Virus record (IMG/VR): IMGVR_UViG_3300025886_000160 | Coordinates: 1-24,026 of that record | DNA length: 24,026 nucleotides | Strand: one strand, 5' to 3' | DNA from: a virus | In this document: positions 6,634-22,081 of the stretch, piece after piece | How the letters are laid out: each line of letters starts with the position of its first letter | How positions within the stretch are numbered: the first letter of the stretch is position 1 | The notes under the pieces: model-generated | The model's input: only the letters and a program-made list of their open reading frames with translations | Told to the model about the DNA's origin: nothing | Databases searched by the model: none | Translations under genes and position numbers: made by a program

Positions 6634-6649
6634 AATATTATATGTTATC

Positions 6650-6802
6650 TGTAGGATTATTCCTACACGAAATTGTAGGACGATTCCTACAAGATTTGTA
6701 AGAGGATTCCTACAAAAAAATGTAAGATTATTCCTACAGACGTGTAAGAGGATTCCTACAGTTGTAAGATAGTTCCTACAACATCATCAGAATTGTCCTA
6801 CA
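6650..6802 (+). repeat. Iteron array: seven 18-bp imperfect palindromes
   Basis: Six clear copies of TGTARGAnnrTTCCTACA start at 6650, 6674, 6697, 6721, 6743 and 6763, and a decayed seventh at 6785. Spacing is 20-24 bases, about two helical turns, so bound proteins would line up on one DNA face. Each unit is a dyad (TGTAGGA/TCCTACA), best kept in the first two units; later units keep the right half better. A perfect distal copy lies at 7355. The array leads into very A+T-rich DNA and a DnaA-box match, as in iteron-type replication origins. Repressor operators are the alternative. Confidence 0.8.
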
Positions 6803-7272: not shown

Positions 7273-7354
7273 TTAATTGGTCGTGTTATACCCAATATCT
7301 GTCAGGAACAATTCCCACCAAATTAGTATGATATGGATCAGCGGATGCGCTGTT

Positions 7355-7372
7355 TGTAGGAATATTCCTACA
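7355..7372. repeat. Perfect 18-bp palindrome, distal iteron copy
   Basis: TGTAGGAATATTCCTACA is its own reverse complement and has the consensus of the iteron array 550-700 bases upstream. It probably binds the same protein, and could support DNA looping between the two sites. Confidence 0.75.
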
Positions 7373-7800: not shown

Positions 7801-8076
7801 CCAATAATGTGTAAAGTCTAACTTATTGATTAGGTATTGATTGAGAAGACAGGATGCGGAAACGCGAAGGTGTATAATTCCGGGCAAAGGTTCACCGATA
7901 CCCCCCCAATTGAGGGAGTGGGGGGCGAAGTTCCACAAGGTCAATATTGAAAACGGCGCCGCTTTATACTAGGATGGACAGGGCAATCCAAGAAACCCCC
8001 GATAGGTACAACACACGTTTTCCAAGGTTTGCATCCAAGGCCGGTCCTCGAGACTTACGAACCCGATGCAAAAACC

Positions 8077-8216
8077 CGTTTACAGGTGTACTATACAGAC
8101 AAGCGTTCTCTATGTGTAGTCGGAGGTTACCTATCCACGGCAAATTATCTAAGTAAGTAAACGCGATACGGGCCACCCCGGGATTGAGTCAGTATCCGGA
8201 CTCCGCGTTTACAGGT
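8077..8216 (+). repeat. 11-bp direct repeat competing for one complementary strand
   Basis: CGTTTACAGGT occurs at 8077-8087 and 8206-8216. The segment GTAAACG (8157-8163) can pair with either copy: the distal copy gives a 9-bp stem (GTAAACGCG/CGCGTTTAC), the proximal one a 7-bp stem. This allows two exclusive RNA folds. Confidence 0.55.
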
Positions 8217-8259
8217 CCCGTGTAGACACTTCGGGAGGGTGCAATTCCCTCCGGGACCG
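8214..8259 (+). ncRNA. tRNA-like minihelix 1 (acceptor stem + T-arm)
   Basis: A perfect 7-bp stem GGTCCCG/CGGGACC (8214-8220 and 8252-8258) encloses a 14-nt linker and a T-arm-like hairpin: GAGGG, 7-nt loop TGCAATT, CCCTC (8235-8251). This is the acceptor/T half of a tRNA with the D and anticodon arms replaced by 14 bases. It lies 41 bases before the first early gene. A simple GGAGGG/CCCTCC hairpin is an alternative fold. Confidence 0.5.
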
Positions 8260-8299
8260 CGACGTGGCAAGTTGCCATATCATTAATAAATTCAACATT

Positions 8300-8710
8300 A
8301 TGCAGGTTCGCATATACCAACCAACCATCGAGGGCGATACGTCCATCGAATCTAGCCTGACCATCAAGTTCGGCACATCCACGAGGAGCCTCAACACGCA
8401 ACTCGGCACACTACTCACGGAAATCTTCGAACGGATGGATTTCTACAAGTCCATGGGTTCACGGCTCTGCACGTGCAATGCCCCCCTGTTGGTCACCTTC
8501 AGCACGAAGAATCAGACCATAGACCTCGGGTCTATCGACGAGGAGCTCGTCCACAAGCTCAAGCCCTCGTACAATACCAAGGGTCGAATCCGGTATGCTC
8601 GACGCATCGTCAAGTCGGCGAAGTGGATGATTGAGACCCCTGACCGTCTCAACAATACCATCGGTGCCGACGAGCTGATTGCAGGTCTCGAGGCTCAGTT
8701 GAAGGACTGA
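8300..8710 (+). CDS. Hypothetical protein, first gene of the rightward operon
   Basis: This 136-residue protein starts at ATG 8300 after an A/T-rich leader (attcaacattATG); an in-frame ATG at 8264 is less likely because it lies next to the tRNA-like element. The N-terminal half is beta-rich (MQVRIYQPTIEGD, SLTIKFGTS), the C-terminal half helical and basic (KGRIRYARRIVKSAKWMIE). No known motif, membrane segment or signal peptide was seen. It is flanked on both sides by tRNA-like minihelices, so it may be excised as its own mRNA. Codons are C-rich in third position, unlike the A+T-rich DNA upstream. Confidence 0.75.
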   Translation: MQVRIYQPTIEGDTSIESSLTIKFGTSTRSLNTQLGTLLTEIFERMDFYKSMGSRLCTCNAPLLVTFSTKNQTIDLGSIDEELVHKLKPSYNTKGRIRYARRIVKSAKWMIETPDRLNNTIGADELIAGLEAQLKD

Positions 8711-8718
8711 TTCTGACA

Positions 8719-8772
8719 ATGGTACTTGGAGGGCACAACGTGCCGGGGGGCTCGATTCCCCCCTACCATCCA
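8719..8772 (+). ncRNA. tRNA-like minihelix 2 with a hairpin in the linker
   Basis: Outer stem ATGGTAC/CTACCAT (8719-8725, 8763-8769; six of seven pairs), T-arm GGGGG, loop CTCGATT, CCCCC (8746-8762), and CCA right after the stem (8770-8772). The 20-nt linker folds as GGCAC-AAC-GTGCC (8732-8744), like a tiny anticodon arm. It fills the gap between the first and second genes. Confidence 0.5.
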
Positions 8773-8790
8773 ACCCCAAAACAAAACAAC

Positions 8791-8862
8791 ATGTACCACA
8801 TCATCCTTTTCATCAGCGTCCCGGCAATCGTCGGGGCGCTCCACCTCTTAAGAAACCTTTAA
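8791..8862 (+). CDS. Very short membrane peptide
   Basis: This 23-residue reading frame starts at ATG 8791 after accccaaaacaaaacaac, the clearest A/C-rich Bacteroidetes-type leader in the operon. It is one hydrophobic segment (IILFISVPAIVGALHLL) with a short polar tail (RNL). It ends one base before the next start. It could be a membrane-acting early peptide; the leader and tight spacing are the main evidence that it is translated. Confidence 0.45.
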   Translation: MYHIILFISVPAIVGALHLLRNL

Positions 8863-8863
8863 A

Positions 8864-8995
8864 ATGCCACGTCCACGCATCAAGCGCCGCTCGAATGTTG
8901 ACCAACGTATCAACGCTGTACTCAAGCAACTCACCCGACACGAAGTTAAATCCGCACAGATCCGCCTGGACATGCGCAAAATTGCCACATCATGA
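8864..8995 (+). CDS. Short basic protein
   Basis: This 43-residue protein starts at ATG 8864 and its stop overlaps the next start (ATGA). It is strongly basic, with MPRPRIKRRS at the N-terminus and a predicted helix after it. Nucleic-acid binding is plausible, but no family is recognised. The stop/start overlap and shared C-rich codon use support it as a gene. Confidence 0.6.
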   Translation: MPRPRIKRRSNVDQRINAVLKQLTRHEVKSAQIRLDMRKIATS

Positions 8996-9204
8996 CCACC
9001 AATCCCGATTACCTCAACACCTCGAACAACTTGCTCAGGCTTCGGCGCTATCAGCGAGCCATCAAGCATCACGATAAGGAATTGTACAGGGAGAACCACG
9101 AGTACCTGCTTATCGAAACCTTCTTCTCCATGGACTCTAGCAGACGCCACAAGCTCGCAACCGCTTTCCCATGGCTCAACATGCAATACACAACTTGGAT
9201 TTGA
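8992..9204 (+). CDS. Small protein of the FF..D...L..AFP family
   Basis: This 70-residue helical, basic protein is translationally coupled by an ATGA overlap. Its C-terminal part, IETFFSMDSSRRHKLATAFP, matches the C-terminal part of the protein at 10418-10744 (IDAFFKADNNNKPRLVEAFP), so the two share a domain. From memory, similar short domains occur in other Bacteroidetes phages, without known function. Confidence 0.65.
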   Translation: MTTNPDYLNTSNNLLRLRRYQRAIKHHDKELYRENHEYLLIETFFSMDSSRRHKLATAFPWLNMQYTTWI

Positions 9205-9205
9205 C

Positions 9206-9523
9206 ATGAACCCTCTCAACCCCCGCCCGATGAGCAATCCCAAGCAAATCCAAAAGCAGTTGGCCCGTGAGAAGGCCCACGCGGAACGCATGGCCGCCCC
9301 GAACGGCTTCGTCATCTACAAGTACTCCTTCAGTGAGATGAAGCGGATGTACGTCAAGTCTATCTCCGACAGCCTGGACTACGTCGATGAGGTCGAGTAC
9401 ACCGAAGAGAAGTCCGAGGCCCTCGTTCACCCCAACTACGAATCCGCCCGGTGGGACACCGCAGGACGCGACCACCTCGAGTACGTCATCGTCGGCGAGG
9501 TCTTCCGCATCGAAAAACTTTAA
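9206..9523 (+). CDS. Hypothetical protein
   Basis: This 105-residue protein starts one base after the previous stop. The N-terminus is basic and helical (QIQKQLAREKAHAERMA), the rest acidic and mixed (SLDYVDEVEYTEEKSEAL), ending in a beta-like EYVIVGEVFRIEKL. The start region nearly duplicates that of the gene at 9540. A second in-frame ATG at 9230 is possible. Function unknown. Confidence 0.65.
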   Translation: MNPLNPRPMSNPKQIQKQLAREKAHAERMAAPNGFVIYKYSFSEMKRMYVKSISDSLDYVDEVEYTEEKSEALVHPNYESARWDTAGRDHLEYVIVGEVFRIEKL

Positions 9524-11736: not shown

Positions 11737-11969
11737 AGTACACACCTCAAGACATCGAGAATACAAGGCGCGTCATCCTGGACGAGCTGATTGACGAGAT
11801 GGTACGCACCTCTCGTGCAAAGAACCTGCACCCTGTCGATAGGGTCGCCGCACTTCAACTAACCTTAGACCTTGAGGGCATTCGTAATGAGTCCTTCGAC
11901 TCTGAGTACCGCCACGCACAAGCCATGCTTATGGAAGATTCCAATCAAAAACCCAAAGACAATGAGTAA
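11733..11969 (+). CDS. Hypothetical helical protein
   Basis: This 78-residue protein starts at ATG 11733 in an ATGA overlap. It is a continuous amphipathic helix pattern (TRRVILDELIDEMVRTSRAK, AALQLTLDLEGIR) without aromatic core residues, so dimerisation or binding to a partner is plausible. The end overlaps the GP88 gene by 8 bases. Function unknown. Confidence 0.65.
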   Translation: MKYTPQDIENTRRVILDELIDEMVRTSRAKNLHPVDRVAALQLTLDLEGIRNESFDSEYRHAQAMLMEDSNQKPKDNE

Positions 11970-12594
11970 GCTCAACCTTCTGACGCAGAACAGCAAGATG
12001 AAAAAGACCTCCGAGTACTTCGGGCTCGGGGTCTACAACTTCACGATTCCTGCACATCGAGACCCGGAGACGGGCCGCACGACCTGTCCTTTCGCCGGGG
12101 CATGCAAGTCCTTCTGTTACGCCAATTGGGAGACCCGATACGGCTACAGCTTCGACGCCTCGAAGGCTGCTTCTGCTCGCAAGTACGAGCTGACCAAGAC
12201 TGACGACTTCGTAGACGAGATGGTGTCCGCCATCCGCCGCAAGCGCAAGCTCGACGTGGTCCGCATCCATGACGCCGGCGACTTCTACTCTCCTGAGTAC
12301 AGAGACAAGTGGCTCGAGGTCATGCGCGTCTGCGACGACAAGCAATTCTATGCATACACTAAGTCCCTGCCGTTCTTCCGTGACATTGACCTGCCTGACA
12401 ACTGTAGCATCACCTTCAGCTTAGGCGGTACGCTCGACGAAACCATCGACTTCGATACCGAGCGCCACTCACGCATATTCGACACAGTTGACGACCTTTT
12501 AGAGGCCGGGTACGTGGACTGTAGTAAGCACGACCTCTATACAACACACTTTATTTCCCCGGACAATCACCGATCCGGCCTCATCAACCACTAA
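11962..12594 (+). CDS. GP88-family phage protein (Cys-cluster)
   Basis: This 210-residue protein starts at ATG 11962; the frame continues upstream to 11872, but 11962 follows the A-rich acccaaagaca leader. It has LLTQNSKMKKTSEYFGLGVY, then the cysteine cluster TCPFAGACKSFCYANWETRY (Cys42, Cys48, Cys52) and RIHDAGDFYSPEYRDKWLEV. This matches my memory of the 'gene product 88' family named after a mycobacteriophage protein. The Cys spacing C-x5-C-x3-C suggests a metal or iron-sulfur site, and the following AGDFYS..Y...W is the most conserved part. The function of the family is not known to me. It is the best conserved protein in the first half of this operon. Confidence 0.8.
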   Translation: MSKLNLLTQNSKMKKTSEYFGLGVYNFTIPAHRDPETGRTTCPFAGACKSFCYANWETRYGYSFDASKAASARKYELTKTDDFVDEMVSAIRRKRKLDVVRIHDAGDFYSPEYRDKWLEVMRVCDDKQFYAYTKSLPFFRDIDLPDNCSITFSLGGTLDETIDFDTERHSRIFDTVDDLLEAGYVDCSKHDLYTTHFISPDNHRSGLINH

Positions 12595-12601
12595 TCACAC
12601 A

Positions 12602-21499: not shown

Positions 21500-21532
21500 A
21501 GAGCCCCTAGAAAAGTCTGGGGGCTCTATTTT
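21500..21532. terminator. Strong intrinsic terminator between convergent operons
   Basis: A 12-bp stem (AGAGCCCCTAGA / TCTGGGGGCTCT, one wobble pair) with a four-base loop AAAG is followed by ATTTT on the plus strand. It stops the rightward operon 100 bases after its last gene; with fewer U residues on the other side it may also act on leftward transcripts. Confidence 0.8.
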
Positions 21533-21577
21533 GGAGAGAACGGTTTAGTCACTGGGGTTCGATTCCCCCCTCTCCAC
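21532..21577 (+). ncRNA. tRNA-like minihelix 3 (canonical T-loop)
   Basis: A perfect 7-bp stem TGGAGAG/CTCTCCA (21532-21538, 21570-21576) encloses a 14-nt linker and a T-arm with the fully canonical loop TTCGATT (21558-21564, four of five stem pairs). The architecture, 7-bp stem, 14-nt linker, 17-nt T-arm, is the same as at 8214. It begins where the terminator ends. Confidence 0.55.
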
Positions 21578-21607: not shown

Positions 21608-21700
21608 TTTGGAAGAGATATGGTAGAATGGTGTGCAGGGAGAACCTGCAACAGGTAGTTCATAGTTATGCCTTTTGAAACACTACCTATCTCAACCAAA
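21608..21700 (+). ncRNA. Candidate branched RNA at the operon junction
   Basis: An outer stem (TTTGG-AA-GAGATA with TATCTC-AA-CCAAA; symmetrical internal loop) closes a three-way arrangement: hairpin TGCAG-GGAGAAC-CTGCA (21634-21650; 7-nt loop) and hairpin GGTAGT/ACTACC (21654-21687) with an inner CATA/TATG. The plus-strand 3' part overlaps the end of the leftward nuclease gene by nine bases. A minus-strand RNA could fold similarly. Confidence 0.4.
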
Positions 21701-22081
21701 GTATTCATCAATAACCTGCATGCATGATGCCAGGCCGTAACAAATCTCGGCTCGCCAACCATTAGAGTTGAGCCTCTTAATCCAATCCTTTTGGTAAGTA
21801 GATGGGCGGCCCTTTTCGGTCTTTACCTCAATGGCTAAACCGGAATACATTCCCCTTGGTTCAAAGATGAGTAGATCCGGGATACCCCTCTTGTACCCAG
21901 CTTGCTTCATCTTCTTTGCTGTATGCATGGCAAGCCTTACTCCTCCGACCGTCGCCGAGAAGAGCGGGCTTTGCGGATGCGCTTCAAGATAGCGCGTAAG
22001 AGCCACTTGAATATCGTGCTCAGGACTACGGTTTTTACGTCCCGTTTTGGACGGCGTGACTTGAAAATTCCCATTACTCAT
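21692..22081 (-). CDS. VRR-NUC domain nuclease
   Basis: This 129-residue protein is placed to start at ATG 22081, overlapping the endolysin gene by 8 bases; an earlier in-frame start at 22102 is less likely. It has the PD-(D/E)XK core of VRR-NUC nucleases: GIPDLLIF (Asp69), GLAIEVKTEKG (Glu85, Lys87) and later Gln97 in the helix YQKDWIKRLNSNGW. Stand-alone VRR-NUC proteins in phages are thought to cut branched or damaged DNA, such as junctions before packaging. It ends the leftward operon at the convergent junction. Confidence 0.88.
   Translation of the reverse strand: MSNGNFQVTPSKTGRKNRSPEHDIQVALTRYLEAHPQSPLFSATVGGVRLAMHTAKKMKQAGYKRGIPDLLIFEPRGMYSGLAIEVKTEKGRPSTYQKDWIKRLNSNGWRAEICYGLASCMQVIDEYFG

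Follow-up and report, generated by a model that had tools for sequence, protein, structure and literature searches.

The stretch of DNA analysed here, referred to throughout as the window, comprises 24,026 nt of a 24-kb virus record (IMGVR_UViG_3300025886_000160, positions 1 to 24,026). An operon of approximately 13 kb lies on its plus strand, and a structural scan (see below) indicated that gene 1 is the only gene of this operon to be flanked on both sides by tRNA-like elements, here termed E1 and E2 (Table 1). A search of Pfam and PHROG with the gene 1 protein returned no match. Gene 2, downstream of E2, is predicted to be expressed; its equivalent in a diverged relative, G005, is likewise a 23-aa hydrophobic peptide at the same location, with little sequence identity to it.

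Table 1. Features of the gene 1 region and of the far end of the operon, in window coordinates.
Feature	Position	Strand	Description
S0	8157..8212	+	Three-way-junction RNA of 56 nt that opens the operon leader; closed by a 9-bp helix
E1	8214..8258	+	12-bp stack, loop TGCAATT, 3-bp mini-hairpin, D and anticodon arms absent; part of the leader upstream of gene 1
H3	8261..8281	+	Small hairpin following E1, upstream of gene 1; from the folds of both phages
Gene 1	8300..8710	+	136-aa protein, first gene of the plus-strand operon; no known family
E2	8719..8769	+	12-bp acceptor/T-stem stack, loop CTCGATT, hairpin GGCAC-AAC-GTGCC; from sequence, fold and comparison with G005
CCA	8770..8772	+	Directly 3' of E2, no discriminator base; CTC in G005
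Gene 2	8791..8862	+	Encodes the hydrophobic 23-aa peptide MYHIILFISVPAIVGALHLLRNL; lies past E2
E3 (tentative)	21532..21576	+	Third element of the E1/E2 plan, loop TTCGATT (canonical); from the structural scan

A second IMG/VR record (IMGVR_UViG_3300009507_000137) represents the same phage as the window (99.8%) and is without any difference from it across positions 8000-9500. The diverged relative, G005 (IMGVR_UViG_3300031974_003661; 36 kb), was reached via relatives of the terminase. Its terminase and primase are 86% and 77% identical to those of the window, respectively, its gene 1 homologue shares 67% amino acid identity with window gene 1, and coding DNA is ~70-75% identical between the two phages. 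A further relative, G007, includes the later operon, and its record stops short of the gene 1 region. Searches of IMG/VR with the S0 core, gene 1, the neighbouring gene, and a 16-nt core of E2 recovered only the window phage and G005; four further matches to the E2 core lacked the structure. The diverged comparison for E1 and E2 is with this one relative, i.e., it comprises two sequences. Among named phages, neither a near DNA match to the window nor a match to the leader was found. A model of the leader (R1) gave 0 matches among 395 genomes from the phylum of a host-like genome (L126), a search for which no positive control was possible, and the primase, searched in bacterial genomes with regard to the prophage and host question, also gave no match. 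The best terminase relative in bacterial genomes was that of Xanthovirga aplysinae (39% identity). Genes of the window lack Shine-Dalgarno sites and often have an A at -3, as is likewise described for genes of Bacteroidota (PMC6847099). The terminase match and the absence of Shine-Dalgarno sites suggest, without proving, that the host of the phage belongs to the Bacteroidota.

Elsewhere in the window, a GP88-family gene (11956-12597) is 91% identical in DNA and 98% identical in protein to its counterpart in G005, with neighbouring genes at ~70-77% DNA identity, which likely reflects recent exchange or unusual constraint. Positions 6645-6780 and 7350-7372 hold seven copies of a ~23-nt repeat with the palindromic core TGTAGGAnnATTCCTACA. 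These repeats sit in a long AT-rich non-coding region near which several related contigs end, and they are possible replication origin iterons or repressor sites.

For positions 8719-8772, the initial annotation had described six of seven acceptor pairs, a 5-bp T-arm with loop CTCGATT, and a 20-nt linker containing the hairpin GGCAC-AAC-GTGCC, and all of these features were confirmed. The element reads ATGGTAC TTGGAGGGCACAACGTGCCG GGGGG CTCGATT CCCCC CTACCAT, followed by CCA. Six of its seven acceptor pairs form, both in the sequence and in RNAfold, with C.C at position 7, and when G8745-C8763 is counted as a sixth T-stem pair the stack is unbroken at 6+6 = 12 bp. The structure returned by RNAfold is exactly the described one, at an ordinary energy (z -0.79). 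The sequence of E1 is GGTCCCG TGTAGACACTTCGG GAGGG TGCAATT CCCTC CGGGACC; its fold was also recovered by RNAfold, with an energy better than that of shuffles (z -2.50). A covariance model of E1 found neither E2 nor E3, indicating that E1 and E2 are alike in plan and not in detectable sequence.

In all four copies of these elements (E1 and E2 in the window and in G005), the stack counts exactly 12 pairs and the loop 7 nt, and the T-arm signature G53-C61, C56, R57, and A58 is present. U54 is missing from E2, which has C54, and U55 is missing from E1, which has G55. The D arm, the 7-nt anticodon loop, the discriminator, and a conserved encoded CCA are missing from E1 and E2, with one mini-hairpin, within an insert of 14-21 nt, replacing the D and anticodon arms. 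This hairpin had been proposed to be an anticodon arm, an assignment that its 3-4-nt loop, which is not an anticodon loop, does not bear out. The CCA reported directly after the stem is indeed present, with no discriminator base, but is not conserved, being encoded in window E2 only. Because G005 has CTC at this place, the encoded CCA is probably a chance occurrence, and it was rejected as a mature tail.

ARAGORN in bacterial mode predicted 0 tRNA genes, and a canonical tRNA was rejected, while the mitochondrial mode of the program produced scattered low-specificity calls, none of them on E1 or E2, and a mitochondrial-type tRNA was rejected on that basis. The Rfam tRNA family (RF00005) had no match in the second record of the same phage, in G005, or in G007, with a control that matched in 14 of 14 genomes, and it was not accepted for E1 or E2 of the window. 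Matches of tRNA-Sec (RF01852) to E2, at 18.6 and 22.1 bits, were discarded as sub-threshold, with a 5' strand drawn from inside gene 1. The initial description of the element as tRNA-like therefore stands as far as the 12-bp stack, the 7-nt loop, and the signature bases are concerned, whereas ARAGORN and Rfam reject it as a tRNA. The top Rfam match of window E1 was mascRNA-menRNA (RF01684), which aligned end to end at 21.7 bits in a small search space, far under the gathering cut-off of 42.5. E1 of G005 had no match to this family.

The whole 5' leader of gene 1, comprising S0, E1, and H3, is structured in both phages; H3 keeps its shape in G005 with a different stem sequence. The 40-nt core of S0 is identical in the window and G005 despite the divergence of their coding DNA, its fold has an RNAfold z of -2.70, and its 3' end falls 1-2 nt short of E1. 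S0 matched no Rfam family, and no convincing promoter was found upstream of it. This junction may be of more interest than E1 and E2 themselves. Additionally, a pseudoknot could form within S0 between J2/3 (GGAU) and the P3 loop (AUCC).

Both E1 and E2 are kept in G005, where they flank the gene 1 homologue at the same positions. E2 starts 8 nt past the gene 1 stop codon in the window and G005 alike, and 44 of its 52 columns (85%) are identical between the two, as compared to ~70% in gene 1. The earlier claim that the pair of elements brackets gene 1 exactly thus holds in both phages with respect to the flanking itself, but "exactly" is loose given distances of 8 nt on the 3' side and 41 nt on the 5' side. 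The accompanying analogy to mitochondrial-style punctuation proved too strong: gene 1 alone is bracketed in this operon, most genes are without separating elements, and the CCA is not retained in G005.

The folds of E1 and E2 predate the comparison with G005 and were worked out on the window sequence by itself, and that of S0 was derived from the consensus of the two phages; the shuffles used to assess pairing keep the substitutions. Among the 15 pairs of E1, 6 have two-sided changes and 0 are broken, a result with P = 0.004 when taken alone. The 18 pairs of S0 include 3 with two-sided changes, all in the closing helix, and again 0 that are broken. For E2 (17 pairs), 1 two-sided change, 2 one-sided changes, and 0 broken pairs were recorded, and wobble pairs are present in the G005 copy. 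Covariation of E2 alone is weak, the probability of no broken pair being just 0.40 in a conservative shuffle because only four of its paired positions changed. When S0, E1, and E2 are pooled (50 pairs), 10 pairs show two-sided compensatory changes, 2 show one-sided changes, and 0 are broken. This was matched by 0 of 200,000 shuffles, which break 9.4 pairs on average, and these numbers should not be over-read since they come from two sequences only, with the S0 fold taken from their consensus; the signal is mostly that of S0 and E1. The case for E2 is made by strong conservation in a non-coding gap, the unbroken plan, the constant 8-nt spacing from the stop codon, and the architecture it has in common with E1. 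The initial annotation had offered a lack of conserved pairing in relatives as grounds for refutation, and in G005 such pairing was found for the E1 and E2 pair.

The structural scan sought an acceptor stem, an insert of 8-30 nt, and a T-arm with a T-like loop on both strands of 1.1 Mb of phage DNA, a background that came in part from an unselective, methylase-based search for relatives. E1 ranked 1st (window) and 2nd (G005), E3 5th, and E2 6th (window) and 10th (G005). A looser scan of the window alone found 6 candidates versus 6.6 expected from shuffles; with no excess, it is the comparison with relatives that decides. By that comparison, the pair of E1 and E2 is conserved, and its tRNA-like geometry is more than chance. 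Because G005 retains both, E1 and E2 are probably real RNA signals.

E3 sits between two terminator-like hairpins at the distal end of the operon, past the first of them. It is absent from G005 and G007, where nothing and a different insert, respectively, occupy its place. Its fold is weak and its T-arm resembles the 3' end of tmRNA, and E3 may alternatively be what is left of a tRNA or tmRNA 3' end at an attachment site. A conserved structured stretch (GGYGGCATGGTGTRCAGGGAGATCCTGYAAC...GTGAAACACCGCC; window 21618-21701) was also observed between the convergent operons of the window, G005, and G007. It shows several two-sided changes, could belong to either strand, and matched no Rfam family.

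Bacterial RNase P benefits from an RCCA sequence 3' of the acceptor stem but does not strictly require it. RNase P and RNase Z generate mascRNA, and elements of this type are cut by these two enzymes in the MALAT1 and MEN-beta transcripts. E1 and E2 would fall into this known class of tRNA-like processing elements, and we assign a probability of about 0.45 to the reading that around gene 1 they act as minimal processing signals of the RNase P type, akin to mascRNA or t-elements. Several observations favor this reading, including the flanking of gene 1 in two phages, the conservation of pairs, the 12-bp stacks, the T-arm signature, the position of mascRNA-menRNA as best Rfam match of window E1, and the constant spacing between the stop codon and E2. 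Moreover, in E1 and E2 of both phages the T loop stands 12 bp from the would-be cleavage site, a feature of RNase P substrates. The same reading is weakened by the lack of a conserved RCCA (GCGA follows E1 in both phages, and CCAA or CTCA follows E2), by G55 in E1 and C54 in E2, by the weak covariation of E2, by a mascRNA match that is below the cut-off and absent for G005 E1, and by the comparison being with one diverged relative.

RNase P makes use of the T loop and of the 12-bp distance, and model hairpins made of an acceptor and a T-arm are cleaved by it (PMC11143913, PMC4919913). In plant mitochondria, the enzyme also cuts a tRNA-like t-element within a transcript (PMC4919922). We infer that the operon is transcribed as one unit and that RNase P would recognize and cut E1 and E2 for the purpose of separating gene 1. 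Embedded in the phage operon transcript, each element would present the part of a tRNA that RNase P measures, with one small hairpin in place of the D and anticodon arms. Host RNase P would cut at the 5' edges of E1 and E2, and a host 3' tRNA-processing nuclease would possibly cut at their 3' edges. These cuts would separate the mRNA of gene 1, ending 8 nt past the stop codon, from the remaining operon transcript, and the cut at E1 would also free the upstream 56-nt leader RNA S0, its 3' end beside the closing helix. The double-stranded leader before E1 may hinder RNase P. The fuller proposal, in which two anticodon-less tRNA mimics make host tRNA-processing enzymes excise gene 1 and release a leader RNA, as a bacterial-virus counterpart of MALAT1/mascRNA or of mitochondrial t-elements, is put forward more tentatively.

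A somewhat unlikely alternative is that S0, E1, H3, and E2 are UTR structures that remain uncut and that, independent of tRNA enzymes, guard the mRNA of gene 1 against nucleases or adjust translation of gene 1 or gene 2. Strong and stable helices at both ends of gene 1, a 5' leader that is structured along its whole length in both phages, and the fixed position of E2 just past the stop codon are all consistent with such a role, which would nevertheless leave the exact 12 pairs, the 7-nt loop, and the G53-C61, C56, R57, and A58 signature unexplained in both elements. Placement around gene 1 is fixed in both phages, which points to a role in cis, and a conserved CCA, discriminator, and anticodon are all absent; it is therefore decidedly doubtful that the elements are released as small RNAs that act in trans by occupying RNase P, the CCA-adding enzyme, EF-Tu, a synthetase, or a tRNA-targeting defence enzyme of the host, despite two, perhaps three, copies with tRNA acceptor/T-arm geometry in one phage and the precedent of mascRNA as a released tRNA-like RNA acting in trans (PMC9976931).

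That the gene 1 protein binds E1 and E2 and thereby regulates its own operon is improbable. The elements occur solely in association with gene 1, on both sides of it, and the AlphaFold model of the protein (pLDDT 77) weakly resembles nucleic-acid binders, its neighbours including the dsRNA-binding p19 (Z 5.2, 88 residues, rmsd 3.4) and the little finger of Dpo4. However, these likenesses (Z about 5) are within noise by the structure tool's own note, Foldseek found nothing, no trustworthy fold match was obtained, and E1 and E2 have little in common in sequence. Finally, chance hairpins or a DNA-level signal unrelated to RNA (a cruciform, or a recombination or integration site) are highly improbable, for although E2 alone folds no better than shuffles, the loose scan shows no excess, the T-arm of E3 matches the tmRNA 3' end as a phage attachment core might, and a DNA cruciform too would be kept by compensatory change, place, plan, and pairing are conserved in the diverged G005, the wobble pairs of its E2 and the three-way-junction leader fit RNA better, and all elements lie on the coding strand.

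If E1 and E2 are RNase P-type processing signals, several known systems offer points of comparison. Like mascRNA and menRNA (RF01684), the tRNA-like ends of the MALAT1 and MEN-beta long RNAs, they combine a 7-bp acceptor with a 5-bp T arm inside a longer transcript, but their middle part is smaller, they occur in a bacterial virus, and their cleavage is only predicted here. Plant mitochondrial t-elements are similarly tRNA-like elements beside protein genes in a longer transcript (PMC4919922); these are organellar and their cutting has been demonstrated, whereas that of E1 and E2 is predicted, and the likeness does not derive from sequence comparison. Phage transcripts with non-tRNA RNase P substrates include the C4 antisense RNA precursor (P1/P7) and M3 RNA (PMC11143913). 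C4 is an antisense regulator, whereas E1 and E2 flank a coding gene and have no Rfam match to C4. Designed substrates of the AT1 type, consisting of an acceptor stem, T stem, and T loop, share the 12-bp stack and 7-nt T loop (PMC11143913); they are artificial and carry RCCA, in contrast to the natural E1 and E2, which have a hairpin insert of 14-21 nt and no conserved RCCA.

Such elements in phage genomes escape tRNA finders and Rfam. If cut as proposed, E1 and E2 would be natural minimal RNase P substrates that serve a phage as mRNA-end signals, and they would connect bacterial viruses with mascRNA and with the t-elements of organelles. They would also provide a simple RNA for studying how far tRNA mimicry can be reduced.
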